Shown here: one piece after another, positions 711 through 14,719 of the stretch
Layout of the letters: each line of letters begins with the position of its first letter
How positions within the stretch are numbered: position 1 is the first letter of the stretch
Origin: a virus
DNA length: 27,477 nucleotides
IMG/VR virus record: IMGVR_UViG_3300031772_007576
Span: 1-27,477 of that record
Reading direction: 5' to 3' (one strand)
Program-made: the position numbers and the translations under genes
Notes under the pieces: model-generated
Database searches by the model: none
Seen by the model: the letters and a program-made list of their open reading frames with translations, nothing else
Told to the model about the DNA's origin: nothing

Positions 711-1373
711 CTAAGGCACAACGTCCTTCAGCAGGACCGCCGCCGCCCCTGACGCCGCACCGACGAGCGCGACCCAGATGCTCAGGGCCACCCAGAAGTA
801 CTTGCGTTTGCACACTCCGGCCAGCGTGAACAGGTGGGCGGACAAGTGCTCGGCCATGCCGTCAACGCTCTGGGCCCGGAATGCCGACCAGAAGTCGGAT
901 GCGGACCTGAACCCTCGAATGCTGTTCCAGAACACAAAGCCCTGAGACTGATCGTTTGTGAGGCGCGGCTTGATCGCCCAGACAGCCAGGGCGACCGTGG
1001 CCGCGAGAAGGGCAAATGAGGACGTAGCGAGCCAGTCCAACCAGTGCCATTGGCTAGGCCACTTGCCGAGAACACCGACGTGGAGCTTCGCCGCGTACAT
1101 GGCGGCTATGATCCCGGATGCGAGGACAACAACCACGCCGGCCTTGGTGTCAGAAAACCGGATGTACTCATTCAGGTAATTGTGGGTGTTCCAGAGGAAA
1201 TCAGCGGCCTTGTCAGCATCGGCCGTGCTCGCACCCGCCATAGTCTGGGCCGATGCTTGTGCGGGCTCGGTTGTGCCCCGCGGCAGGGCCTCGACAAGTG
1301 GTCGGAGTGGAGCCGCCAGTGTTTGGCTCTCGGGTTGACCTTCGTCGTACTTGGGGATCTGTTCGGTTGTCAT
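711..1373 (-). CDS. Pycsar-type transmembrane effector (PycTM / DUF5706-like)
   Basis: A 220-residue membrane protein. Residues 1-50 are a low-complexity, Pro/Ala/Thr-rich lead. A soluble helix with the signature NEYIRFSDTKAG (68-79) runs into the first membrane segment (about 79-97). Two more segments lie at about 116-134 and 193-215, with a GFVFWNSIRGF motif at 145-155 between them. This layout matches the Pycsar effector family (Pfam DUF5706), in which a cyclic nucleotide made on phage infection is thought to trigger membrane damage and abortive infection. The start at 1373 has AGGAA upstream and lies 8 bp after the stop of the adjacent cyclase gene, so the genes are one operon with the effector last, next to its expected signal source. 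The family call rests on the motif and membrane layout read by eye; no profile search was run. Confidence 0.82.
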   Translation of the reverse strand: MTTEQIPKYDEGQPESQTLAAPLRPLVEALPRGTTEPAQASAQTMAGASTADADKAADFLWNTHNYLNEYIRFSDTKAGVVVVLASGIIAAMYAAKLHVGVLGKWPSQWHWLDWLATSSFALLAATVALAVWAIKPRLTNDQSQGFVFWNSIRGFRSASDFWSAFRAQSVDGMAEHLSAHLFTLAGVCKRKYFWVALSIWVALVGAASGAAAVLLKDVVP

Positions 1374-1381
1374 GTTCTTCC

Positions 1382-2179
1382 TCACGATGTCGGCTGCGCG
1401 AGCCGGTAATTGAGACGCCATGCCGGATACGGCGCCCCATTGGACTTGTACTCGAAACCCGTAGGCACAGGGACTTGCGCACACCAGGCGCCCCAGCCCG
1501 CGGGAAGGCGACGGTGGACCTCGTTCCCGACGCAGATGCCACCGTCCGGGATCAGCCGCATGATCTTGCAGGCGATGTTCGCCGGCGTGCCGATTGCCAC
1601 AAACGAGTTGAGACCACCCGGCACGCCAACCTTGCCTATCGTCACCTCGCCGAAGTTGATTCCAACGCGGAAGGCTATCTGGCGGAACCCTTGCTGGACA
1701 AGCCAAGGCCCTATGAGTTTCTCGTTGACGTAGTACATCACGACGGCCGATTCAACGGCCTGGCGCACAGCGGCTTTGTCGTCCGTGGAGTCGGCCCCAA
1801 AGTAGGCCATGAGCCCGTCACCTGTGTTCTTCTCGAATAATCCGCCGAAGTCCCTCACGATGTTCATCATCTCGGCCATGAAGACGTTCATCACCCGCAG
1901 CACCGTGACCTGCTCCGCGTGATCGGAACTCGGCCAGGAAGAAAAGTTGCAGATATCGAGAAACAGGATGGCGAGCATATAATGCTTGCCGCTGCCGATG
2001 GCGACCTGCTCAAGTTTAGGTGGAGTTCGCCCCTGTGGCAGGTCGGTGGTGCGGTCGTACAGGTTCTCGATGCGCGTGTTGGCCCGCTCAATGATCTGGT
2101 TCACATAGGCCTGGGTCCATTTGCGGGGATGCTCGGCCAGTATCATCCTCAGTATTTCGGCTTGCGATAGAGTCGTCAT
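1382..2179 (-). CDS. Class III nucleotide cyclase of a Pycsar-like cassette (cyclase A)
   Basis: A 265-residue class III nucleotidyl cyclase without transmembrane or receiver domains. The first metal-binding Asp is D75 in FLDICNFS and the second is D121 in KNTGDGLMAYFG. Lys117 sits four residues before D121, where purine cyclases carry a base-contacting lysine. N201 in the GTPANIACK segment matches the transition-state Asn, but the usual Arg four residues later is Lys205. The catalytic core therefore looks active. It would make a cyclic nucleotide (cCMP or cUMP in characterised Pycsar systems) that activates the neighbouring membrane effector. The start at 2179 overlaps the stop of the preceding cyclase as ATGA, giving translational coupling, with AAGGA just upstream. 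A longer frame to 2293 only reads into that neighbour. The product base cannot be deduced safely from sequence alone. Confidence 0.85.
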   Translation of the reverse strand: MTTLSQAEILRMILAEHPRKWTQAYVNQIIERANTRIENLYDRTTDLPQGRTPPKLEQVAIGSGKHYMLAILFLDICNFSSWPSSDHAEQVTVLRVMNVFMAEMMNIVRDFGGLFEKNTGDGLMAYFGADSTDDKAAVRQAVESAVVMYYVNEKLIGPWLVQQGFRQIAFRVGINFGEVTIGKVGVPGGLNSFVAIGTPANIACKIMRLIPDGGICVGNEVHRRLPAGWGAWCAQVPVPTGFEYKSNGAPYPAWRLNYRLAQPTS

Positions 2180-2937
2180 GATCCTTCTCCAAGCATGCGC
2201 CAAGGAAAAACCACCGCGTGGCCGGGCGGCGACCCGTAGGTGGGTTTCAGTCGGGTCATGCCACCCGGGCCGCTCGGGTAGGAGCCAAGGCACGCAGGCG
2301 ATATCACGACAGATCCATCGGCCTGGTCACACAATTTGGAGGCCGTGTTGACCGCGTCACCGTAGGCCGTGACCTCGTGGGCATCGTCGAGGCCGATCCT
2401 CGTGATGACGATCTCGCCCTGGTCGACGCCCACGCCGATGCGGACACCGGCCGGGAGTTCAAAACGGGCGAGCAGCGGGTTCACGACGTCGGCCACCGCT
2501 TCGAGCATGGTCTGGCCACAGACTGCGGCCCCTTGAACGGCTTCGCCCTTGCTTCGGCCGGCCGGATTCGTCGCGTACTCGTCGATGCCGAACGCGGCGA
2601 ACAACCCGTCCCCGCGAAAGCCGACGATGTAGCCTCCCGCGTCGTTGACCAGCAGCGCCATGGCGGGAAGCAGCGCGTGCATGGTCACGAACGTCGCCCT
2701 TGCGCCGACCGCCTTCGCCCTGGCCGTGGAGTCCCGCATGTCCATGAAGAGGACTGCCGCCCATGCCTTCTCGGCGGACGTCAGCCGCAAGCGGGCATAC
2801 CTGGGGATGTCGGTGATCATCCCCTTGGCGGCGGCATACTTGCGGACGTTCTCGACCAGACTAATCTCGTCCGCCGTTTCCAACGCCTGTTGTAGATTCG
2901 CCACAACTACTGCTGCTACCTGGGCCTTCGTCGCCAT
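2176..2937 (-). CDS. Second, divergent class III nucleotide cyclase (cyclase B)
   Basis: A 253-residue cyclase with both metal aspartates: D66 in LFMDMRDST and D110 in GFRGDGLFAAFG. The Asn of the third motif is N197 in AYGDAVNTASK, and Lys201 replaces the usual Arg. Unlike its neighbour it has Gly106 where cyclase A has Lys117, and the sequence before the second Asp is different, so the two are not a recent duplication. A helical segment (1-57) precedes the catalytic domain. The start at 2937 is chosen for AGAAGGA about 6 bp upstream; the longer frame to 3405 runs into the IS21 end. It is the first intact gene of the three-gene Pycsar-like operon. It could form a heterodimer with cyclase A, make a different nucleotide, or be the main synthase with the other as regulator. 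Confidence 0.83.
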   Translation of the reverse strand: MATKAQVAAVVVANLQQALETADEISLVENVRKYAAAKGMITDIPRYARLRLTSAEKAWAAVLFMDMRDSTARAKAVGARATFVTMHALLPAMALLVNDAGGYIVGFRGDGLFAAFGIDEYATNPAGRSKGEAVQGAAVCGQTMLEAVADVVNPLLARFELPAGVRIGVGVDQGEIVITRIGLDDAHEVTAYGDAVNTASKLCDQADGSVVISPACLGSYPSGPGGMTRLKPTYGSPPGHAVVFPWRMLGEGS

Positions 2938-2956
2938 GTCAATCCTTCTCCGTAAG

Positions 2957-3163
2957 TTACGGGACTTGGCCATGGGTACGCGCAGCCACGCCGCTGGTCG
3001 ACCATGGGCCTGACACGGGAGGTCCACCCCAGGATGCAGAGTTGCACAGTTCGCCCTGCTTCTGCAGCTCTTCTGGCTGCGTTGGAGGGGAACCTCCATA
3101 TGTAAATAATGCCCAGCTGAAATGGTCCGCCATGCAGCCGCCGTAGGACTGCTTCTTCTTCTC
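2957..3163 (-). pseudogene. Possible 3' part of the small gene split by IS21, plus leader of the Pycsar cassette
   Basis: Joining the gene fragment that starts at 6090 to this side, after removing the IS and one copy of CTTCTC, gives a continuous 90-codon frame. It ends with TAA at 2957-2959, 19 bp before the cyclase B start. The first 24 residues look like a good amphipathic helix. The rest is rich in Trp, Cys, Gly and Pro and looks less like a folded protein, so part of this stretch may instead be leader DNA. It contains an AT-rich patch (about 3098-3111, ATATGTAAATAAT on the plus strand) that could hold a minus-strand promoter for the cyclases, and a short hairpin GGAGG/CCTCC at 3084-3097. 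Confidence 0.3.
3158..3163. repeat. IS21 target-site duplication, left copy (CTTCTC)
   Basis: CTTCTC at 3158-3163 directly abuts the left IS terminus and is repeated exactly at 6019-6024 after the right terminus. Six bp lies within the 4-8 bp expected for IS21-family insertions, so the ends are defined to the base and the insertion was simple. Confidence 0.85.
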
Positions 3164-3214
3164 TGTCGGCGGGCGGGCAAAACCGGCCAGGGCTGGGCAG
3201 GTGAAAACCGGCCA
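3164..3214 (+). repeat. IS21 left end: terminal inverted repeat with two binding repeats
   Basis: The end starts TGTCGGCGGGCGGG. The core AAAACCGGCCA appears at the ends of 3171-3189 and 3195-3214, spaced about one helical turn by two. The arrangement mirrors the right end (5967-6018). Such multiple end repeats are typical IstA binding sites. Confidence 0.8.
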
Positions 3215-3285
3215 TCTGAGGAAAGGTCGTCATCAATCGGTACTCTCTTTCCTTTCCCCGTATGGGGCAAGGAAGGAGCGGCTGG

Positions 3286-5130
3286 ATGGCGAACGATCTC
3301 AAGATGGACAAGGTTTTCTCGATACTTACGTTGCACAAGGCTGGCTGGTCGGACCGCCAGATCGCACGAGAGCTGGGCATTCACCGCGAGACGGTAGCCC
3401 GGCATCTGCGACTGGCTGGGGTGGGGCCTGCCTGTCCGGCAGGGTCAAAACCGGCCACAAACCCGCCCACCGGGTCGGATGGGGTGCCCAACCTGCCCAC
3501 CGGCTCTGCGAGCGAACCAAACCCGGCCAGTAACCTGCCCACCGGGTCCGCGGGTTCTTCGGGCGGGCCCTGGAACACATCCGGGGTCCAGCCTTGGACG
3601 GAAGATGGATTTATCGCTTTACTGCCAACGGCAGCAGACGATAGCCTGAGCAACGCCGTCGCGGAGGATAGGGCTCTGCTGGGAAGCAACCCGAGCGCCG
3701 CGGCGGAGCCATACGGCACGGGCGGCCTCGACTCGATCGGGGCCGCCTGCATTCCTCCCGAGTGCGGCAAGTCAGGGCCAATCAGCGACTGCGGGCCGTA
3801 CCATCAGATCATCCTGGCCAAGCTGGATCAGGGCTTGTCGGCCCAGCGGATTCACCAGGACCTGGTCAGCGACCACGGCTTTGGCAGCGGCTATGACAGC
3901 GTCAAGCGGTTCGTGCGGAAGTTGGGAGCGGCGACGCCGCTTCCATTCCGCCGTATGGAGTGCCTGCCAGGCCAGGAGTGCCAGGTGGACTTCGGCACCG
4001 GGGCGCCCATCGTTGGTGCTGACGGACGGCGTTGCAAGAGCCACGTCTTTCGAACTGTGCTGGGCTGCAGCCGCAAGGGCTACAGCGAGGCGGTGCTACG
4101 GCAGACGACGGATGACTTCCTGCTGTGCCTGGAGAACGCCTTTTGGGACTGGGGCGGGGTGCCCAGGATCACGACGATTGACAACCTTAAGGCCGCGGTA
4201 AAGCACCCGGACTGGTACGACCCGGAACTGAATCCCAAGGTCCAGTCGTTCTGTGAGCACTACGGCACGGTGATCATGCCCACTAAGCCCTACACGCCTC
4301 GCCACAAGGGCAAGGTGGAACGCGGCATCGCCTACGTGCAGGACAATGCCCTCAAGGGACGGACGTTCAGCAGCCTGGCCGAAGAGAACCGCCACCTCCA
4401 GCAGTGGGAATCCACTGTCGCCGACACCCGCATTCACGGTACGACGCGCAGGCAGGTAGGCAGGATGTTCCAGGACGCGGACAAGCCGGCGCTGCTGCCC
4501 TTGCCGGCGGGCAGGTTCCCGTTCTTCCACGAGGGTCAGCGTCGGGTGAACCGCGACGGGCACATCGAGGTGGCAAAGGCGTACTACTCTGTGCCGCCGG
4601 AGTACCTGGGCCGGACGCTGTGGGTCCGCTGGGATGGGCGCTTGGTACGGGTCTACAACAAGCGGCTGGAGCAGATCGCCGTCCATGCCCAGCGCCAGCC
4701 TGGCCAGTTCAGCACGCAGGGGCCGCACATCGACGCCCGCAAGATCTCCGGCATAGAGAGGGGAACGGGCTGGCTGCTGCGGAAGGCGGGCATGATCGGT
4801 GATAACGCCGAGAAGTGGGCGGCTGAGATGCTGGTGGATCGCGGCATAGCCGGCCTGCGAGTGCTGCAGGGCCTGATCCACCTGGCCAATCGGCATGACA
4901 GCGACAGCATCGACCGGGCATGCCGAATCGCACTGACGCATCGGGCCTTCCGCCTGCGCAGCGTACGGGAGCTCATCAAACGTGGCGGATGCGAGCAGGA
5001 GCAGTTCGAGTTCCTGGCCGAACACGAGATTATCCGCAACATGTCGGACTATGGGCACATCGTGCGGGCATCCATTCTTCAGGATCCCGCGGCCCTTGAA
5101 CCCCTGGAACCTGCCCAAGGCAGGCAATGA
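3286..5130 (+). CDS. istA: IS21-family transposase IstA
   Basis: A 614-residue DDE transposase. The N-terminus has a helix-turn-helix (WSDRQIARELGIHRETVARHL region, about residues 18-40). A proline- and glycine-rich linker follows, built on repeats of LPTGS/PTGSA (about 55-95). The catalytic core has D235 (QVDFG), D299 (TIDNLKAAV) and E345 (HKGKVERG). IstA binds the IS ends and performs strand transfer with IstB. The start at 3286 is chosen for AGGAG 7-8 bp upstream; 3262 is an alternative that adds eight residues. The stop is 10 bp before istB. At 614 residues it is longer than most IstA proteins, mainly because of the low-complexity linker, part of whose DNA copies the IS terminal repeat (3438-3457). 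Confidence 0.93.
   Translation: MANDLKMDKVFSILTLHKAGWSDRQIARELGIHRETVARHLRLAGVGPACPAGSKPATNPPTGSDGVPNLPTGSASEPNPASNLPTGSAGSSGGPWNTSGVQPWTEDGFIALLPTAADDSLSNAVAEDRALLGSNPSAAAEPYGTGGLDSIGAACIPPECGKSGPISDCGPYHQIILAKLDQGLSAQRIHQDLVSDHGFGSGYDSVKRFVRKLGAATPLPFRRMECLPGQECQVDFGTGAPIVGADGRRCKSHVFRTVLGCSRKGYSEAVLRQTTDDFLLCLENAFWDWGGVPRITTIDNLKAAVKHPDWYDPELNPKVQSFCEHYGTVIMPTKPYTPRHKGKVERGIAYVQDNALKGRTFSSLAEENRHLQQWESTVADTRIHGTTRRQVGRMFQDADKPALLPLPAGRFPFFHEGQRRVNRDGHIEVAKAYYSVPPEYLGRTLWVRWDGRLVRVYNKRLEQIAVHAQRQPGQFSTQGPHIDARKISGIERGTGWLLRKAGMIGDNAEKWAAEMLVDRGIAGLRVLQGLIHLANRHDSDSIDRACRIALTHRAFRLRSVRELIKRGGCEQEQFEFLAEHEIIRNMSDYGHIVRASILQDPAALEPLEPAQGRQ
3438..3457 (+). repeat. Extra copy of the IS21 end repeat inside istA
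   Basis: GGGTCAAAACCGGCCA within this interval matches the core of both IS ends, including the variant GGGTCAAAACCGGCCA obtained by reversing 5967-5986. Here it encodes part of the istA linker. It may be a third internal transposase-binding site. Confidence 0.6.
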
Positions 5131-5140
5131 AAGGAATGTC

Positions 5141-5935
5141 ATGAACGAATCGTTACAGAGCGCGTTGAAGAAGTTGCGGCTGTCAGGCATGAGCCAGACA
5201 CTGGAGGTCCGATTGCAGGAGGCCGCCGGCAATCGGCTCAGCCATGCTGAGTTCCTGGAGCTGGTGCTTCAGGACGAGCTGGCCATCCGCTCGGATCGGC
5301 TGGTGGGCCGCCGCGTGAAGTCCGCGGCGTTCCGCGAGCAGAAGACGCTCGAGGACTTCGACTGGCATTTTAACCCGTCGATCAAGAAGAAGCAGGTCTT
5401 CGACCTTGCCACATGCCAGTTCATTCACCAGGGCAAGGATGTGCTGCTGCTTGGCCCGCCCGGCACGGGCAAGAGCCACCTGGCCCAGGCCATCGGCTAC
5501 CAGGCGATCAAGGCGGGTCTGCTGGTGCTGTACCGGTCGATCTTCGACGTGGTGCGGGACTTCCTGCACGACGAGGCCTTCGACGGCCAGGAGAAGGTCC
5601 TGGCCCGCTACCTCAAGCCGGACTTGTTGATAATCGACGACATGGGCATTAAGCAGTTGCCCAAGCGGTCCGGGGAGTATCTCTTCGAGATCATCATGCG
5701 GCGGTACGAGACGAAATCGACGATGATGACCTCGAACAGGCCGCTGGAGGACTGGGGCAAGCTGATCGGCGACGTGCCCAGTGCCACGGCGATCCTGGAC
5801 CGGTTCCTGCATCATGCCGAGATCATCACGATCACCGGCCGCAGCTACCGGCTGAAGGACCACCCAGCCCCGGAACCCCCGACGAAGCCCCGCTCTGGCA
5901 AGCAATCTGCCGCGGAAGAAGCTTGCCAGGAATAA
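5141..5935 (+). CDS. istB: IS21-family helper ATPase IstB
   Basis: A 264-residue AAA+ ATPase of the DnaC/IstB type. An N-terminal helical region (1-90, with the MNESLQSALKKLRLSGM opening typical of IstB) precedes the ATPase core. Walker A is GPPGTGKSH at residues 105-113 and Walker B is LLIIDDMG near 163-170. A sensor region (MMTSNRPLEDW) follows, then the GRSYRLKD box near the C-terminus. IstB forms ATP-dependent oligomers that select and bend target DNA for IstA. The start at 5141 follows AAGGA with a short spacer, 10 bp after the istA stop, so the two are co-transcribed. The gene appears intact. Confidence 0.95.
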   Translation: MNESLQSALKKLRLSGMSQTLEVRLQEAAGNRLSHAEFLELVLQDELAIRSDRLVGRRVKSAAFREQKTLEDFDWHFNPSIKKKQVFDLATCQFIHQGKDVLLLGPPGTGKSHLAQAIGYQAIKAGLLVLYRSIFDVVRDFLHDEAFDGQEKVLARYLKPDLLIIDDMGIKQLPKRSGEYLFEIIMRRYETKSTMMTSNRPLEDWGKLIGDVPSATAILDRFLHHAEIITITGRSYRLKDHPAPEPPTKPRSGKQSAAEEACQE

Positions 5936-5966
5936 CCCCAGTGAGGTATAGATCAACAACAACTAC

Positions 5967-6018
5967 TGGCCGGTTTTGACCCGCCCACTACTGGCCGGTT
6001 TTAACCCGCCCGGCGACA
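5967..6018 (-). repeat. IS21 right end: terminal inverted repeat with two binding repeats
   Basis: Two near-identical repeats, TGGCCGGTTTTGACCCGCCC at 5967-5986 and the same with TTTTAACCC at 5992-6011, precede the terminal CGGCGACA. They are inverted relative to the left-end repeats. The next 6 bp (6019-6024) is the second copy of the CTTCTC target duplication. Confidence 0.85.
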
Positions 6019-6090
6019 CTTCTCGGCCTCAACTTCTTCCAGCAGCATCTCGAACGCTGACGACACGTTGGTGGGGTTGTTCTCGATCAT
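6001..6090 (-). pseudogene. 5' end of a small operon gene truncated by IS21
   Basis: An ATG at 6090 lies 11 bp after the helicase stop and has AAGGA about 9 bp upstream, as expected for the next gene of the operon. It encodes 24 native residues (opening MIENNPTNVSSAFEMLLEEV) predicted to form an amphipathic acidic helix. The frame then enters the IS right end, adds five IS-encoded residues and stops at 6001-6003. The target duplication shows the gene was open before insertion. Virtual removal of the IS gives a 90-codon frame ending at 2957. I do not recognise the family. Being last in a methyltransferase-sigma-helicase operon suggests a small accessory subunit, now lost or shortened here. Confidence 0.6.
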
Positions 6091-6101: not shown

Positions 6102-9100
6102 TTAGATAAGCGCTTCGCTGCACACGATCTTGGGAACGGGTTTCTCTCCGAAGTCCAGGCTCGGCCTGTCCAGCCATTCCCGCATGTTGTGTTGGAGGTA
6201 GAGATCACTCAGGAGTTTCAACAAGGTTTGGCCGGCAATCCCGTTCCGGCGGATTCGATTGAGCTCCTGATTGAGCACTCTTGTGACCGGGGCACGAAAT
6301 GCTTTTTCCAGGATGTTGACCTGTCCCCGCACGTCCTCGTCACCGGTTAGCCCGAAGAGCACACGAAGCTCTCGCAGGACATAACGCTGCCCATGCGTCA
6401 GGGAAAGCGTATGCTCCCGCTCCGTCTGGCGGTGTTTGACCTCTTCGGCGAACTGACGCTGGACCCGCATGACCGCCTGATTGTAGTTCTTGGGCAGGTC
6501 GTCGGCCTTCAGGTCCGGCCCGCACTTGATGGCTCCGAGCACCTTGGGGATGTCGCGCGAAAGTATCTGACCCTGCGGATCGACCATGAAGAGTTGCTGG
6601 TATCGCCCGGCCTGGCAGAAGACGTACACGCCCTTGTAGGTGGACGACCGGGCAGTGCGGATGCCGTCGTGGAGATTGGCGATTCGCTCGTATTCGGCCG
6701 GGTCATCCTTTCGGAGTTGCCGGAGGATCTCTTCGGCCTCGTTGATGTCGAGGATTTCCTGCTCGTCTTCGTCATCGAAGAGCGCGAGCTGTCCGCCTTG
6801 TTTCTCGTAGATTGCGTACATGGCCTCCTCGTTAAGCCGCTCACTCTTGTCCAGGATGGCCGAGTCTTCCCCGATGCTGTCATGAATCTCCTGTATGCGG
6901 TTGTGCAGCTTCTGCCGGAGCCCCAACTGCCGCTCGATTCCCGTTTCCGGCAGGAAGTTGAACCCGTAAATGATCAGATGCTCCGATCCGATTCGGTCGA
7001 TGCGGCCGAACCGCTGAATCAGCTTCACGGGGTTCCAGTGGAGGTCGTAATTGATGATGTTATCGCAATCCTGAAGGTTCAGACCTTCGGCCAGCACGTC
7101 CGTGGCCACAAGCGTCGTGATCTCAGATTCGCCGCCCTGGAACTTGTACTCGGGGTTGGCCTTGGGCGCGAAACGTCCAACGACCTTGACCTTGGACTTG
7201 TCCCCGCTGAAGATGACCTCGATGTCGTCGCGCCTTGCATCGGGGTTCAGGTTATCGAAGATGTACCGAGCCGTGTCCGCATACTGAGTGAAGATCAGCC
7301 GCTTGCCGTTCTTGAGGGGCTTCTGGTTCAAGCGACGGATAAGCGTCTGAAGCTTGGCATCTCGTTCAGGTGTTATGGGCGCCACCGCCTTCAGAATCTT
7401 CTGCAGCAGCTTCAGGTCGTGCTCGATGTGCGCCTCAAGTCGGTCTGTGTCGAAGTCGCTGGCCGGGTACTTGCCTTCAACACCCCGCAACGCCTCCACG
7501 ATATCTCGTTCCTCCGCCTCGTTGGGGTCATAGAGGATCGCCTGCGCCTCTTCGCCGGCGGCCACGATGCCCTGGCGCAGGGCATCCAGGAATCGCTTGT
7601 GTCCGGTGATCAGCCGCCCAATTGTGCAACGGAAGGCCTCCACACTGGACTCGAACCGCTTGAACAGCAGAATGCGCATCAGGCCGCGGAGGTTGACCCC
7701 GGCCCGCTTAAGGCTGGCGTAGGGCTCCCGGCGGCGCTTCTCTTCCGGCAGGTAGTGCCACAGGCCATAACGAGCATAGGTCAGTTCATCCAGGTGGGGG
7801 GTCGCCGGCTGGCCCTTACGCCTCTTGCCCAGATACCCGCGCAACTGCTGGTAGAGGCCCTGATAGGTGTCCTCGATGCTGTACTCGATGGTTTCCAATT
7901 CACGGGTGGGAAAGAACTGATGCCTGCCGCCGACCATGACATACGCCCGGCGCGTGCCATCCACGTACTCCTTCCACCGGGACGGATCGACCTGTTGGTG
8001 CGTTTCAGCATCAAAGCCGTAGAAGCGCAGAATGTGGCTGCGCAGTCGCCGAATCAGGATGTGACGCAAGAGTTCCTGAATCTGCTTCTCGCCTTTCTCT
8101 ATCTGCTTGAAGTATTCCTTCAGGTCTGGCGGCGATATGGGCAGGTCCGTCTTGTCGTCAGGGTGAAACAGCTTAATCTGATGGTACACGTCCCAGGCGC
8201 TCTTGTTCCGCGGCGTGGCCGTCAGGAAACAGCACCGCTTGCCGACCTTGAGAAAATCCTGGACAACCCGATATCGCTGCGTGTCGCTGTGGCGGAAGTT
8301 GTGGCTTTCGTCGATCAGCACAAAATCCCGGTCACGGTACTTCACGTCATCGCGCAGGAAATTGGCAAACCGGTCCCCGTCGTCCTCGTGGAGATAGCCC
8401 ATCGACAGGACGCGGGCATTGAGTTGATAGACCTCGTTGTACCGCTCCCACATCTCCACAAGGGGCGCCGGGCAGATGATAAGCGGCCGGGCACGCTCAA
8501 CCCGCTCGAAGTGCTTGACGATGGCCGCACCGATGTAGCTCTTGCCCATGCCAACCACGTCGGCCACGAATGCGCCGCCGTAATCACGGACCATCTGGAT
8601 CGCCTGCCGCACCGCCACCTTCTGGAAGTCGGCCAGAAGCTTGGTAACATCGTCGTCCCACAGCAGATCCTGGTCGTCGGCGCCTTCCAGCCGGTCCCTG
8701 ACCAGCGCGTACAGCGTCTTCATGTAGATGTCGTAGGGGCGAACGGAGGCTGCCGCCCACGACTGCTTCATCTCTTGCATCAGGGCTTCATCGAAGTCCT
8801 GTGACTCCTTCCACAGCTCGTCGAACCAGCAGACAAGTTCCGCGTGGTTGTCGTTGCCCTGGACGACGACGTTCAGTTCCGTGTTGTGCGTCACGCCCGA
8901 CAGAGTGAGGTTGGACGAACCTACGATGGCAATGCCCTTCTCATGGCGGTCCACGGTCTTGCCCTTGCCATCGAACACCTTGCCGTAGTCAAAGATGTAC
9001 GCCTTGGCGTGCATCCGGCCCTTGGTGTAGACCTTCACCTTCAGACGCTTTTCCTCGATCATCCGCACCATGCCGCGCACCAAAGTTTCCGCCTCGTCGG

Positions 9101-9443
9101 TCTGGTCCATCAGGCTGACCGCTTCGCGGATGTTTTCGGCCGTCTCGCCGGCCATTTCCTTGACTGCGGTCCGCTTGGGGTACGCCTCCTCCTCGATTTT
9201 ATCCTTGACCAGTTCCAGCCGCCTGTATCCTTCGGCAAGCTGTTCCAGCGTCTGGCGGTTCGTCGTGTTGCCGATCAACAGGCGCAATTCCTTCACGTCG
9301 GCCAGCTTCTGGCCAATGGAGGTCAGCCCCGACAGGAAGAAGTACCCGACGGCAAACCGGGCCGATTCGGTGCTGGAGAGTATCTGGTTGATGTGGTCAA
9401 CCAGCTTTTCCTTGCGGTTGTCAATTATGTCGTGCGTGGGCAT
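6102..9443 (-). CDS. PLD-nuclease / SNF2-type helicase fusion
   Basis: A 1113-residue two-part enzyme. Residues 1-200 form a phospholipase-D-like nuclease domain with one HKD motif (H145, K147, D152 in HAKAYIFD) and a following GSSN (175-178). Residues about 270-850 are a superfamily 2 SNF2-like helicase: motif I GMGKS 298-302, motif II DESH 378-381, motif III TATP 408-411, and motif VI QRFGRIDRIG 810-819. The C-terminal 260 residues are helical and unassigned. PLD domains usually dimerise to complete an active site. Such PLD-helicases accompany methylases in DISARM-like and restriction-like loci and would translocate on and cut unmodified DNA. The start overlaps the end of the sigma-fusion gene by 23 bp, and its Shine-Dalgarno (AAGGA) is almost flush with ATG, so translation probably depends on coupling. 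Confidence 0.87.
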   Translation of the reverse strand: MPTHDIIDNRKEKLVDHINQILSSTESARFAVGYFFLSGLTSIGQKLADVKELRLLIGNTTNRQTLEQLAEGYRRLELVKDKIEEEAYPKRTAVKEMAGETAENIREAVSLMDQTDEAETLVRGMVRMIEEKRLKVKVYTKGRMHAKAYIFDYGKVFDGKGKTVDRHEKGIAIVGSSNLTLSGVTHNTELNVVVQGNDNHAELVCWFDELWKESQDFDEALMQEMKQSWAAASVRPYDIYMKTLYALVRDRLEGADDQDLLWDDDVTKLLADFQKVAVRQAIQMVRDYGGAFVADVVGMGKSYIGAAIVKHFERVERARPLIICPAPLVEMWERYNEVYQLNARVLSMGYLHEDDGDRFANFLRDDVKYRDRDFVLIDESHNFRHSDTQRYRVVQDFLKVGKRCCFLTATPRNKSAWDVYHQIKLFHPDDKTDLPISPPDLKEYFKQIEKGEKQIQELLRHILIRRLRSHILRFYGFDAETHQQVDPSRWKEYVDGTRRAYVMVGGRHQFFPTRELETIEYSIEDTYQGLYQQLRGYLGKRRKGQPATPHLDELTYARYGLWHYLPEEKRRREPYASLKRAGVNLRGLMRILLFKRFESSVEAFRCTIGRLITGHKRFLDALRQGIVAAGEEAQAILYDPNEAEERDIVEALRGVEGKYPASDFDTDRLEAHIEHDLKLLQKILKAVAPITPERDAKLQTLIRRLNQKPLKNGKRLIFTQYADTARYIFDNLNPDARRDDIEVIFSGDKSKVKVVGRFAPKANPEYKFQGGESEITTLVATDVLAEGLNLQDCDNIINYDLHWNPVKLIQRFGRIDRIGSEHLIIYGFNFLPETGIERQLGLRQKLHNRIQEIHDSIGEDSAILDKSERLNEEAMYAIYEKQGGQLALFDDEDEQEILDINEAEEILRQLRKDDPAEYERIANLHDGIRTARSSTYKGVYVFCQAGRYQQLFMVDPQGQILSRDIPKVLGAIKCGPDLKADDLPKNYNQAVMRVQRQFAEEVKHRQTEREHTLSLTHGQRYVLRELRVLFGLTGDEDVRGQVNILEKAFRAPVTRVLNQELNRIRRNGIAGQTLLKLLSDLYLQHNMREWLDRPSLDFGEKPVPKIVCSEALI

Positions 9444-10707
9444 TCCTTGTCTCCCGGCCGCTTGGCGTGCCGTCAGCGTTTAACAGGAACCCGAGCCGGG
9501 CAAGTGCCTTACTCTCGATCTGTCGCACGCTCTCCCGTGTCAGTCTAATGCTTTTCCCGGTTTCTTCCAGTGTTTGCTCGTTGCCAGTAATCAGACCGAA
9601 CCTGGCGCTGATGACGACCCGTTCCATCGGCTTCAGTCGATCTACGGCCATGCGAACAGCATCGCGTCGTTCATGCAGAACAAGCCCGCGTTCCGGACCT
9701 ACGGCGTTTAGGTCTCGCAGATCGTGCCGCTCCAAAACATCAACCACGGAACGCTTGAAGAGTGGGCGTTCATTTGCATCCACCCGCCTCACCAGCCCGT
9801 AATACACGATCATCGCACGCAATAGGTGGGTCTTAATCGCCCGCACGGCATAGGTCGAAAACCTGGTGCCTCGCTGGGCGTCGAAGCAGTTGGCAGCTCG
9901 AATCAAACCGATGTTGCCAAGTTGGATCAAATCGTCAAGATCAAGCCCCCCTGCGTACTGCCTCTTTGCCAACCGCATAGCAAAGTATGCCGAAAGCAGA
10001 AGATTCGCGCAGACCAGTGCATTACGCACATCGAGATACTCCCGACTGGCGTCCTTGTTGCCCGTGCGCTCGATGCGGAGCTGAGTCAGCCGTACAACGA
10101 TATCCCGTTCCTCCTTGGCTGACAAACGCGGATAACGCCGCACGTCCCGCCAATAGGGTGTATCACCATCCCGTCCTTGCTTGGCAGGCTCAAACTGTCT
10201 TCGTCCGCGGCTGAATACGGTGTCAAACGCATTAAGCAGGCCAGCAAGGGGCCTATCTCGGCCGTCTTTCGCATATGTCCGCAAACGCGCGAGTTGGGCA
10301 GCCAGTTTAGGCGTGCTATCCCCATCGGGTCCGATCCGCAGGTGTCGGAGTTCTTCGCCGTCCCGCCCGGCGCGGTGAAACACCAGGTTCCAGGCAACCT
10401 GACCTGCATCGGAAAACACCAGCAGAGCATACGGCATGACTTGCTTGACGTGATCTGCCAGCGCCCGCATGGCGGCGGCACCATCGTGTTGGGAAGTCAT
10501 TCTGGCATAGATGACGTGCAAACCCTGATATCTAGCGAACAAGCGGACTTCATGGAATTGGGAGGCCAGGTTTTCGTCCATAAGCCGCTGGGGGAATGAC
10601 GCCTCGGTGCGGTCGTAACCCAGTGCAGACCAAAAGAGCTTCTTCAGCGGCTCTTCGCCGCGGAAATCCTTCAACAGACCGACAATCTCATTTTGAAGCT
10701 CCCACAC
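9421..10707 (-). CDS. Methyltransferase-type N-terminal domain fused to a sigma-70 factor
   Basis: A 428-residue, uninterrupted fusion. Residues 1-165 are homologous to the N-terminus of the neighbouring methyltransferase: LLKDFRGEEPLKKLFWSALG (11-30), HVIYAR (64-69) and PYALLVFS (92-99) have direct counterparts there. From 183 it is a sigma-70-family factor. Region 1.2 is at about 183-212. Region 2, with the RNA-polymerase-binding stretch DLIQLGNIGLIRAANCFD (259-276) and FSTYA (283-287), follows. A short degenerate region 3 comes next, then a good region 4 with helix-turn-helix LEETGKSIRLTRESVRQIES (380-399). The tryptophan pair used by housekeeping sigmas to melt promoters is replaced (VRAIKTH), as in alternative sigmas. 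A GTG start at 10707 with AGGGG upstream is used; the same frame has TAG at 10717-10719. It may regulate the operon, or bring the restriction proteins to transcription complexes. Confidence 0.88.
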   Translation of the reverse strand: MWELQNEIVGLLKDFRGEEPLKKLFWSALGYDRTEASFPQRLMDENLASQFHEVRLFARYQGLHVIYARMTSQHDGAAAMRALADHVKQVMPYALLVFSDAGQVAWNLVFHRAGRDGEELRHLRIGPDGDSTPKLAAQLARLRTYAKDGRDRPLAGLLNAFDTVFSRGRRQFEPAKQGRDGDTPYWRDVRRYPRLSAKEERDIVVRLTQLRIERTGNKDASREYLDVRNALVCANLLLSAYFAMRLAKRQYAGGLDLDDLIQLGNIGLIRAANCFDAQRGTRFSTYAVRAIKTHLLRAMIVYYGLVRRVDANERPLFKRSVVDVLERHDLRDLNAVGPERGLVLHERRDAVRMAVDRLKPMERVVISARFGLITGNEQTLEETGKSIRLTRESVRQIESKALARLGFLLNADGTPSGRETRNAHARHN

Positions 10708-10834: not shown

Positions 10835-13800
10835 CTATAACTCGTCAACTTCATCGAGAGCAAACGGTAAGCCGCTCTTGTACCAGTCGTCGAAGCTTTG
10901 TCTTGCCTCTCTGGCTGTATCGCTCTTCGCCATACGCGACCAGATCATCTGGCAAGTAGCATTCTGTAATTCGGAAACCAACAGGCGTCGCTGTCGTGAG
11001 TCAGAAAAACCTAACGCTTCCAAGTACGCCTCATCGAGGGCCCTTCGATCCTCTCTGCGCACCTCATCGTAGAACATAAGCGGTTCACGAGTGGCTACTC
11101 GGTCAAAGCACGCGCCGAAATGTTTCAAGTGTTCCGTGCTGATCGTGCGAGGGTCCAAGACTGGCAGGTCGCCAAGTTCATATGTCTGTGTCTTCAAAAG
11201 TCCCTGACCGAAATTAGCCCGGCCCGCGATCTCATAGACCATGAGTGTAAACGCTGATAGAACGCTGCCGGCCACGATCTTGCGCCATGATGGATTGTGT
11301 AACCTGACCTCGACAAGATTGTCGCTGGCACAGGCGTTCGGACTGATAGCCACCACCGGCCGTCGTTTGTGTCCTATTGGTATGAGGATATCTGCGGCCG
11401 ATCTGACATCGATGCGATACCAAGGATCACGGACCCTGAGAGTTGGGCGCTCGTGGTAGCCAAGTCGCTCACCGCGCTTGATGTATGAGAGGGCAAAACG
11501 ATGCCGGCCGGTAACATCGTTTAGGCTTACAAGTTTGTAAGAAACGTCAGAAAGGGTAAGATGAGGCCGGCGGAGTTCCCTCGCTTTGACAATGACAGGA
11601 AGCGTCACGAACTCCTCTTCGATTCGATGGATGCTATCGTCGTCACAGACGATCTCCGCGACACCATCCTGCGAAGAAGCTACGCGAACAAAGAAGAAAT
11701 CATTTGCGCCCGTTGTCAAGCCACGACGAACGTCTCCGAGCTCACGAAGAGGGACAAGCCTGTCGCTGGCCTTCTCTTTGATGGCCCAATATATCTCTGG
11801 TGCTCTAAGATACTTTCCGCCCCATTTGTTGGGGCCATAGCTAGGCGCCTCAAGTAACGAGCGGCGATGAGGGGTAGCTGTTTCTCCGTCGTCGTCGCCT
11901 TTTATCGCCATGCAGCCGTCGTGAAACAAGTCCAGTTGGGTGAGCGAAAACAGCCGGTATTCGGCAGTCGATTTTCGGTGGCGAGTCTCCTCTATTTCCT
12001 GGTAGAGGATCGGTGAAAGCGCCTGTTCAAAAGGCACCTTGAACATTATGAACCGGGCGGTGTGGGATAGTCCTCCATCGTTGTGGTCATCCGGCCGGGA
12101 AAGCAGGGCGATCACCGTGTTTATGTCGGCCGAGGCGAAGGACCGCTTAGCCTGGTTGTCGATGACCATCTTCACATGGCCGTGCCGCAGCAGGAACTCC
12201 TGGAGGTCGGCGCCGTAGGCGACATCCAGCCAAGAGTTCGAGGTGATGAAGCAGAACGAGCCCTTGGTGTTCAGCAGCGACAGGCCGTGGAAGTAGAAAT
12301 AGACATATAAGTCGCTCTTGGCGTTGATCTTGCGGGCAGGCTTTTCGCTGTTGGCCTTGTAACCGAAGAAGGCTGGCCAGGCCTGGTAGACCGACCGGGC
12401 GAGCATGGCCTTGTATTCCTTCTTGTCCTCCGTAACCTGCCTGCCGCTGACGATGGGGGCGGCGATGCTTTCTTGGCGGACATAAGGCGGGTTGCCTACG
12501 ACGATGTCGAAGCCGCCCGTGTCGGATTCCATTACCTCGGCGAAGGCGATGTCCCAGACCAGAGGCACATCCTTGGGATGGCGAAGGGCGGCCTGCTGCT
12601 GCTTCAGGGCTGCAACCTCTTCCATCAGATCGGCAATCTGCTTCTCCCGCTCTTCATGGGCGAGGGACATCTGCCTGGCTGGCCCATCGGCCTCGCCCGT
12701 GAGCAGGTTGCGCTGTGTGGCCGGCTTTTCAGCCTGGATGCGCATGAGCTTCTTGGCCTCTTCATCCAGCGCGGCTGCCCGGTTGCCGAGCAGGTCACGG
12801 AAGATGACGACTTCGTCGCTCTCGATCCGCTTCTTCTCTCTGTCATAGTCAGCTCCAGGAACTTCGTTGTTGAAGAAGGCGAGCTTGGCATTCTGGAGCT
12901 TGCGGAGCCGGTCCTTGATGACCTTGGGGATGTCCATGTTGCCGCGGCGGCGGCTCAGGGATATGCCGCCGACCTCCTGAACCAGACTGTCGCCGCAACG
13001 AATCTTGAAGGAGAAGTGCGGCAGCAGCGGCTCCTGGCGGACGTGGAGTTCCTCGCGGGACATCTCCACGTCGATAATCAGGGCAAGCCACAGGCGCAGC
13101 TCGGCCACGTGGCAAGCCCATTCCATCACGTCCACACCGTAAAGGCTGCGGCCGATGATGCCTTTCTTGCGGTCGTAAGGCGACTCCTTTCGGCCGACTT
13201 GTCCGGCGGCCCGGGCGCGCAGGTCGTCCAGGATGTGCAGCATTCCGACCAGGAACGAGCCCGACCCGCAGGCCAGGTCCGCCACGGTGATCCGCTGGAG
13301 GTGCTCGTCCACTGCCGGCCAGAGCTTGGCCTTGGCCAAGCCGGCGTCGGCGCACTGTTTCTCGTCTAGCTGAATGGCAAAGACGGCCTCGTAGAACAGG
13401 TTCTTGTGCTTATCGCCCAGATGGTTAGCCAGGTTGTCCACCAGGGCCAGGCGGCACATGAGGTCAATCTCGGTGCGGGGCGTGTAGAAAATGCCCGCAT
13501 CGCCGCGTTCGTCGGCCTCCTCGGCCTCCTCGGAAAGATTGACCAACGACTCGTACACCTTGCCGATCATCTCGGGGTCCACGGCAACTTCCTGGTCGAG
13601 GGGGCTGTCTTCGGCGATGGTGAAGTTGTACCGCTCCAGGAAGGTGAAGATCTGCTTGAACCGCACGTCGGCGATATCGAAATCGTATTGGTGGTCCAGG
13701 TCGTTTTCCGAGAACAGGCCGCCGTTGAGGAACGGGGCCATCTGAAGAGCATCGCGGACAGTGTCCGGGAAGTGTTTGTGCCCGCCGTGGAACTTGTTGT

Positions 13801-14614
13801 TGAACGCCTCGAAGAACAAGACGCTGAGCCACTTGGAGAAGAACGTGTCGTTCGGCTGGCCCGCCTTGTTGTAGGCGTTCCAGAAGGCGCCGAGAAACTC
13901 GGCATCATCGCCCAGCCAGCCCTTACGTTGCACGAAGTAGAGGAACATGCAGCGGTTAAGGAACTGAAGGGCGTAATCGTGCGCCCAATGTTCGTCACGA
14001 GTCTGCTTGCCAAGATCATCCCGTAACAAATTGAAGACGGCCTTGTATTCCTCGTAGAACTGCTTCGTGACGGATTCAACGTCAAAGGCCTGGTCGTGGC
14101 GGTTTTGGATTTCCAGCGTCGAAATGCCAAAGAGGTTGAGGTTGATCGACGCCAGGTCCAGCATGGCCACCCGCTCGGAGGCGGTTCGCAGGCGCTCCAG
14201 CGGGCCGATGGTAATTCGGCGGAAGAGTCGCCGCTTCTGGTGATCTTCGCCCAGCTTGACGTTTACGAAGTGCCAGTGGTCTTGGCGCTTGTTGGAGAAT
14301 ATGAAGAGCGAATAAGGGTGTTCCTGAAGGAGGCGCGACACTACCGGGCGCTCCATGCCCAGGCGAAGATCGGGCGAGTCCAGCCGAGCATAGATGACAT
14401 GGAATGAGTTGTCGCTGCCTCCGGTGGCGAACAACACCGGGTCTTCAGCAAGCGATTCGGTGGCGAGCTGGCCCCACCCGCGTCGGGATATGGGCTCATT
14501 GACGCGCTGGTAGTTTAGCTGCGACCAGAACACTTGCTTCAGCGGGTCAAGCCCCCGAAGATTCTTCAGTAGCTCCCAGATCGACTGGTGTACTTCACGT
14601 TCTGGCCGCACCAT
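10835..14614 (-). CDS. Eco57I-like N6-adenine DNA methyltransferase of the defence operon
   Basis: A 1259-residue class I DNA methyltransferase. Residues 1-165 match the N-terminus of the sigma fusion (LLKNLRGLDPLKQVFWSQLN at 15-34, HVIYAR 72-77, PYSLFIFS 100-107). A helical region typical of long Eco57I/PglX-like enzymes follows, including FLNRCMFLYFVQRKGWLG. The SAM-binding motif is ADLACGSGSFL (about 445-455) and the catalytic motif is NPPY (708-711), the adenine-specific form. A coiled segment (about 560-680) lies between them. The last 400 residues should contain the target recognition domain. I see no clear PD-(D/E)XK nuclease motif, so cutting is probably left to the PLD-helicase. The start at 14614 is chosen for AAGGAG 6-7 bp upstream; the longer frame to 14686 is Arg-rich. 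DNA for the C-terminal third (10835 to about 12080) looks AT-richer than the rest. Confidence 0.9.
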   Translation of the reverse strand: MVRPEREVHQSIWELLKNLRGLDPLKQVFWSQLNYQRVNEPISRRGWGQLATESLAEDPVLFATGGSDNSFHVIYARLDSPDLRLGMERPVVSRLLQEHPYSLFIFSNKRQDHWHFVNVKLGEDHQKRRLFRRITIGPLERLRTASERVAMLDLASINLNLFGISTLEIQNRHDQAFDVESVTKQFYEEYKAVFNLLRDDLGKQTRDEHWAHDYALQFLNRCMFLYFVQRKGWLGDDAEFLGAFWNAYNKAGQPNDTFFSKWLSVLFFEAFNNKFHGGHKHFPDTVRDALQMAPFLNGGLFSENDLDHQYDFDIADVRFKQIFTFLERYNFTIAEDSPLDQEVAVDPEMIGKVYESLVNLSEEAEEADERGDAGIFYTPRTEIDLMCRLALVDNLANHLGDKHKNLFYEAVFAIQLDEKQCADAGLAKAKLWPAVDEHLQRITVADLACGSGSFLVGMLHILDDLRARAAGQVGRKESPYDRKKGIIGRSLYGVDVMEWACHVAELRLWLALIIDVEMSREELHVRQEPLLPHFSFKIRCGDSLVQEVGGISLSRRRGNMDIPKVIKDRLRKLQNAKLAFFNNEVPGADYDREKKRIESDEVVIFRDLLGNRAAALDEEAKKLMRIQAEKPATQRNLLTGEADGPARQMSLAHEEREKQIADLMEEVAALKQQQAALRHPKDVPLVWDIAFAEVMESDTGGFDIVVGNPPYVRQESIAAPIVSGRQVTEDKKEYKAMLARSVYQAWPAFFGYKANSEKPARKINAKSDLYVYFYFHGLSLLNTKGSFCFITSNSWLDVAYGADLQEFLLRHGHVKMVIDNQAKRSFASADINTVIALLSRPDDHNDGGLSHTARFIMFKVPFEQALSPILYQEIEETRHRKSTAEYRLFSLTQLDLFHDGCMAIKGDDDGETATPHRRSLLEAPSYGPNKWGGKYLRAPEIYWAIKEKASDRLVPLRELGDVRRGLTTGANDFFFVRVASSQDGVAEIVCDDDSIHRIEEEFVTLPVIVKARELRRPHLTLSDVSYKLVSLNDVTGRHRFALSYIKRGERLGYHERPTLRVRDPWYRIDVRSAADILIPIGHKRRPVVAISPNACASDNLVEVRLHNPSWRKIVAGSVLSAFTLMVYEIAGRANFGQGLLKTQTYELGDLPVLDPRTISTEHLKHFGACFDRVATREPLMFYDEVRREDRRALDEAYLEALGFSDSRQRRLLVSELQNATCQMIWSRMAKSDTAREARQSFDDWYKSGLPFALDEVDEL

Positions 14615-14719
14615 AGATAACTCCTTACGGCTGCTGTGCCGGCGAGCCAGTGCCGGCCGATCTTCACGCCGGGGCCTTGCCGTCACGGGCGATTTGGCAG
14701 AGCCTCGATGCTGACATCC

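Follow-up and report, generated by a model that had tools for sequence, protein, structure and literature searches.

The nearest described systems to the operon considered here are the type-2 BREX-related (BR) systems, whose genes include those for an HKD(PLD)-Swi2/Snf2 helicase and an N6-adenine methyltransferase and whose defining components are a DUF499 ATPase and, in type 2, DUF3780 (PMC12839542). Pycsar cassettes, the second point of comparison, pair a PycC-type pyrimidine cyclase, which produces cUMP or cCMP during infection, with an adjacent effector, which may be the membrane protein PycTM. Insertion sequences of the IS21 family have an istA-istB gene pair, an IstB AAA ATPase, ends of the form TG...CA and a short target duplication, the length of which is 4-8 bp in this family. 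In known Mrr-type proteins, Mrr_N winged-helix domains bind DNA or help in restriction.

The window, which is the whole 27,477-bp stretch of DNA analysed, belongs to an uncultivated virus contig (IMGVR_UViG_3300031772_007576). On its minus strand, an Eco57I/type IIG-like DNA methyltransferase (10835..14686), a sigma-70 region 2/4 fusion protein (9421..10707) and a PLD and SNF2/SF2 helicase of 1113 residues (6102..9443) form an operon that ends in a small gene. The HKD-Snf2 helicase and the N6-methyltransferase are common to this operon and the type-2 BR systems, but the sigma fusion and an Mrr_N stump take the place of DUF499 and DUF3780. Since Pfam recognizes neither of these two domains in the genes of the operon or of Pycsar, membership in the type-2 BR systems was rejected. 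An IS21-family element separates two anti-phage gene clusters, the operon and a Pycsar cassette, and the frames of the methyltransferase, the sigma fusion, the helicase and all three Pycsar genes are intact. It is highly probable that this element inserted at the joint of two unrelated pieces, one being a 23-codon Mrr_N stump at the end of the operon and the other a non-coding stretch that leads into a two-cyclase Pycsar cassette independent of that operon.

An ordinary IS21-family insertion with a true target duplication

The element occupies positions 3164..6018 on the plus strand (2,855 bp). Its sequence begins TGTCGGCGGG... at 3164 and closes ...CCGGCGACA at 6018, and its terminal inverted repeats, which start with TG (TGTCGSCGGGCGGG...), are imperfect, with an 85% match over about 50 bp. 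The istA gene (3262..5130, plus strand) encodes a transposase of 622 residues, in which Pfam recognizes HTH_23, rve (1.2e-8) and Mu-transpos_C_2 (4.5e-15) domains. Downstream on the same strand lies the ATPase gene istB (5141..5935, with its ATG at 5141), for which the IstB_IS21 match of 7.1e-71 was scored on the longer open reading frame 4982-5935. The hexamer CTTCTC flanks the element on both sides, at 3158..3163 and at 6019..6024, where the right copy spans codons 23-24 of the stump. For this one fixed length, an exact 6-bp match of the flanks would arise by chance about once in 4096 cases. The ends, the two CTTCTC copies and the IstA and IstB domains confirm the earlier note's reading of an IS21 insertion with a precise 6-bp duplication.

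The nearest relative found is an element of 2,674 bp with six copies in a Planctomycetota genome; its IstA is 60% identical to that of the window and its ends likewise start with TGT. Five of the six copies are flanked by repeats of 4-6 bp, so the 6-bp duplication in the window is a normal product of such an element. Since the six copies use targets unlike one another, the equal flanks cannot be attributed to a preferred target, and that source was rejected. The remaining one of the six, in L104, is without a matching duplication, which is a sign of rearrangement at the edge of the element. No close relatives of IstA were found in viral contigs. Nothing notable distinguishes the element from the IS21 family, and it is an ordinary insertion of that family with a true target duplication.

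The operon and its small gene

The small gene, the last of the operon, starts at 6090 on the minus strand. A degenerate pattern of its N-terminus, NPTNV..AFE, has one match in 392 Planctomycetota genomes, in a gene (L080:945-1541) for a protein of 198 residues that starts MLENNPTNVSAAFEMLLEEMEAEIDFINTVG... and whose C-terminal end is a winged helix recognized by Pfam as Mrr_N (6.5e-15). Relatives of this protein are present in L081, L082, L089, L090 and L091, and more remote ones in L092 and L105. The family protein has about 195 residues, with a coiled coil and the Mrr_N winged helix. Only residues 1-23 of the L080 protein align with the window (6022..6090, minus strand), and 20 of the 23 are identical (E 1.3e-8). 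This stretch also matches the family HMM (7.9e-6) and contains the conserved family N-terminus NP..VS.AFE.LLEEVEAE. The Mrr_N (PF14338) small proteins of helicase/methyltransferase operons (L080, L081, L089, L090 and L091) are 74-87% identical to it in their first 23 residues. The Mrr_N domain and coiled coil that these proteins carry are both absent from the window, in which nothing similar to the remaining 175 residues of the L080 protein is present.

Codon 24 is Lys in the window and Ile or Val in all seven family members in which the position can be read (codons 24-25 are Val/Ile-Asp in L089, L091 and L081), so Lys24 was rejected as a normal family variant. At the DNA level, the match to the family stops after GAGA, within the duplication GAGAAG. 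Judged from its sequence, the window gene is shown to be a truncated remnant from which the other 170 or so codons are lost, and not a working member of the family. The stump would mean that the restriction operon has lost an accessory component for binding DNA. In the viral contig L081, codon 21 of the Mrr_N gene (10001-10579) is an in-frame TAG (EEV*TEIDFVN), near the break point of the window; this is either a second loss or the sign of a downstream start.

In five loci (L081, L082, L089, L090 and L091), the neighbours of a full Mrr_N gene are a large methyltransferase and a PLD-SNF2 helicase, and the small gene therefore belongs to such operons as a genuine partner. The earlier note had placed a small gene in the operon; these distant loci bear that out, although the window itself keeps codons 1-23 only. 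A sigma-70 region 2/4 gene is present in two of the five (L081 and L090). The methyltransferase-sigma-helicase order of the window recurs in L070, where a relative of the sigma fusion is also found and where the contig ends inside the helicase. No close relatives of the sigma fusion were found in viral contigs.

Over its N-terminal 150 or so residues, the sigma fusion resembles the N-terminus of methyltransferases of the window's own methyltransferase family (27-39% identity), and the N-terminus of the L081 sigma gene matches that of a type IIG methyltransferase model (1.3e-19). In relatives (L005, L007, L021, L031, L062 and others), the gap between methyltransferase and helicase is a hot spot for passengers, which include PIN, nucleotidyltransferase and HEPN toxin-antitoxin-type genes and Uma2 nucleases. 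A DprA-like gene (DNA_processg_A) stands just after the Mrr_N/sigma genes in L081 (11776-12423) and L091 (10241-10858).

Order of events at the junction

In the most likely order of events, a deletion or recombination would have taken away the 3' part of the small gene, so that the Pycsar leader came to lie alongside the stump, and the IS21 element would then have inserted at the scar, making the 6-bp duplication. This order is roughly twice as probable as a deletion beside a resident element using the shared GAGA, because the duplication is intact. Some observations count against the explanation as a whole. The scar and the target of the element lie within a few bases of each other, which, for independent events and a uniform chance of insertion across an interval of about 300 bp, would be a coincidence of about 2%. 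The helicases of the five loci with a full Mrr_N gene are only 26-29% (about 27%) identical to that of the window, and closer helicases, up to 76% identical, are without such a gene, so the history of the stump within the window's own helicase clade is not directly seen.

If the element came first, it would have inserted into the Pycsar leader, and a later deletion running to the outer edge of the duplication would have eliminated the Mrr_N gene's 3' part, the remainder being joined at GAGA. That the stump matches its family up to the GAGA within GAGAAG fits such an order, and one of the six copies of the related element has lost its duplication, so that the flanks of such elements do rearrange. 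However, adjacent deletions made by a transposase begin at the end of the element and would remove the duplication, and the deletion would have to end within 6 bp of it. Insertion before deletion is consequently unlikely, but it is the best of the alternatives. Much less probable is a chimeric metagenome contig, in which two places with the same element would have been joined in assembly. The record is an uncultivated-virus contig and the element is longer than short reads, which speaks for such an error, but the 6 bp match on both sides at odds of about 1 in 4096, and codon 24 of the right flank is Lys where insertion into an intact gene would give the Ile or Val of the family.

As a consequence of the junction, the Mrr_N protein would have been lost, and the Pycsar cassette would be cut off from read-through of the operon and would depend either on the leader in front of it or on outward transcription from the element. 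The duplication argues that the stump with its operon and the Pycsar cassette adjoined just before the element arrived, in this one lineage. The searches found no uninterrupted copy of the locus, and the ancestral order is therefore one that we infer.

The Pycsar cassette and the sequence upstream of it

The cassette (711-2937, minus strand) consists of cyclase B (2176..2937), cyclase A (1382..2179) and PycTM (711..1373). Cyclase B matches PycC models and PDB entry 7r65, while cyclase A, the ATG of which overlaps the cyclase B stop, matches PycC models on the longer open reading frame 1382-2293 and the cytidylate cyclase 8jsf. Asp66 and Asp110 of cyclase B align as the predicted metal-binding residues and are conserved in cyclase A. 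PycTM lies beside the cyclases and is recognized by PF18967 (6.5e-11, above the cut-off) and by the PADLOC PycTM model (1.1e-25). No close relatives of cyclase B or PycTM were found in viral contigs.

The cassette shares the PycC-type cyclase and the PycTM effector with Pycsar but differs from it in having two unlike cyclases in tandem. Both keep the two metal Asp residues and an Asn, and Lys replaces the Arg of classical class III cyclases, as in 7r65. The two may form a heterodimeric cyclase. A Desulfosporosinus plasmid (L076) also has two cyclases, in this case flanking one PycTM, and a Planctomycetota genome has a single Pycsar cyclase with PycTM between apparent dnaK and clpB genes (L077/L093, 501-1819). 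Among the papers searched, none joins Pycsar with the phrase 'two cyclases'.

When the element and one copy of the repeat are removed, the minus-strand frame that starts at 6090 runs without a stop through 90 codons to 2957, reading MIENNPTNVSSAFEMLLEEVEAE and then KKKQSYGGC... across the join; with the element in place it stops after 29 codons. It starts 11 bp past the helicase stop, and 19 bp separate its end from the ATG of cyclase B (2937), so that all the distances given in the earlier note are correct, as is its remark that the C-terminal half looks weak. When codons are scored by their frequencies in the genes of the window, with real 66-codon stretches for comparison, the first 23 codons are coding-like (0.61 bits/codon, against a median of 0.41 in real stretches), and the following 67 codons score -0.13 bits/codon, a value exceeded by 98.6% of real gene stretches. 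The 3' part also has no codon-position GC pattern (0.57/0.59/0.63, compared with 0.64/0.34/0.79 in the helicase). Because 9.5% of shuffles stay open as long as its 67 codons, its openness is weak evidence for a gene.

No homologue of the 90-residue frame was found by a motif search of viral contigs or among the open reading frames of 71 loci with related helicases, and none besides two chance matches in plasmids at E<=10. No Pfam family, Mrr_N included, scored above its cut-off with the frame. The 27-residue N-terminus, a short query and thus a weak test, had no match in 48 helicase-bearing genomes, and the leader DNA (2940-3163) had no meaningful match in plasmids and phages. The 3' part (2957..3157, minus strand), judged non-coding by its codon score, its GC pattern and its want of a homologue, is best read as the leader of cyclase B, and hence of the Pycsar cassette, rather than as a gene. 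A search of the 200-bp leader and of the element's end next to it found no consensus sigma-70 promoter.

The 71 loci have helicases mostly 65-76% identical to that of the window; 66 contain the helicase end, and the sequence downstream of it extends for 500 bp or more in 62 loci and for 5 kb or more in 51. Profile searches, the positive controls of which worked, found no cyclase or PycTM in any of the 71, and no Mrr_N-family gene is present in them either. The five distant operons with a full Mrr_N gene have no adjoining cyclase (PycTM was looked for in the 71 only). Since no Pycsar gene stands beside any relative of the operon, a standing link between the two is unsupported, and the relatives show that the two clusters are not normally joined; the cassette is most probably independent of the operon. 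The proposal that the operon and the Pycsar genes were once contiguous would, as the duplication argues, hold for this lineage just before the insertion and not as a general arrangement, and joint control by the sigma fusion has no support beyond adjacency. A real 90-codon gene split by the element, with the restriction operon and Pycsar transcribed together and perhaps under the control of the sigma fusion, would agree with the open frame, the tight spacing and the true duplication, but it is the least probable explanation and is largely refuted, since the family protein of about 195 residues has another C-terminus, unrelated to the rebuilt frame when homologues are aligned, the 3' part has a non-coding character and no homologue, and Pycsar follows the helicase in none of the close or distant relatives. 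Both observations that the earlier note named as refuting its reading were thus made.

These results prevent the rebuilt frame and the joint operon from being wrongly annotated and supply the true identity of the small gene, which belongs to the Mrr_N winged-helix family. The set of PLD-SNF2 helicase, methyltransferase, sigma fusion and Mrr_N protein recurs in viral contigs and in Planctomycetota and is a candidate defence module. Tentatively, the operon of the window may be a reduced form of an unnamed four-part defence module that recurs across phyla and consists of the PLD-SNF2 helicase, the type IIG-like methyltransferase, the sigma-factor fusion and the Mrr_N protein; a dedicated sigma-like protein and the winged-helix protein would control or guide restriction in it. 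If so, the Mrr_N part of the module has been lost in the window and is also interrupted, by the in-frame stop, in L081.
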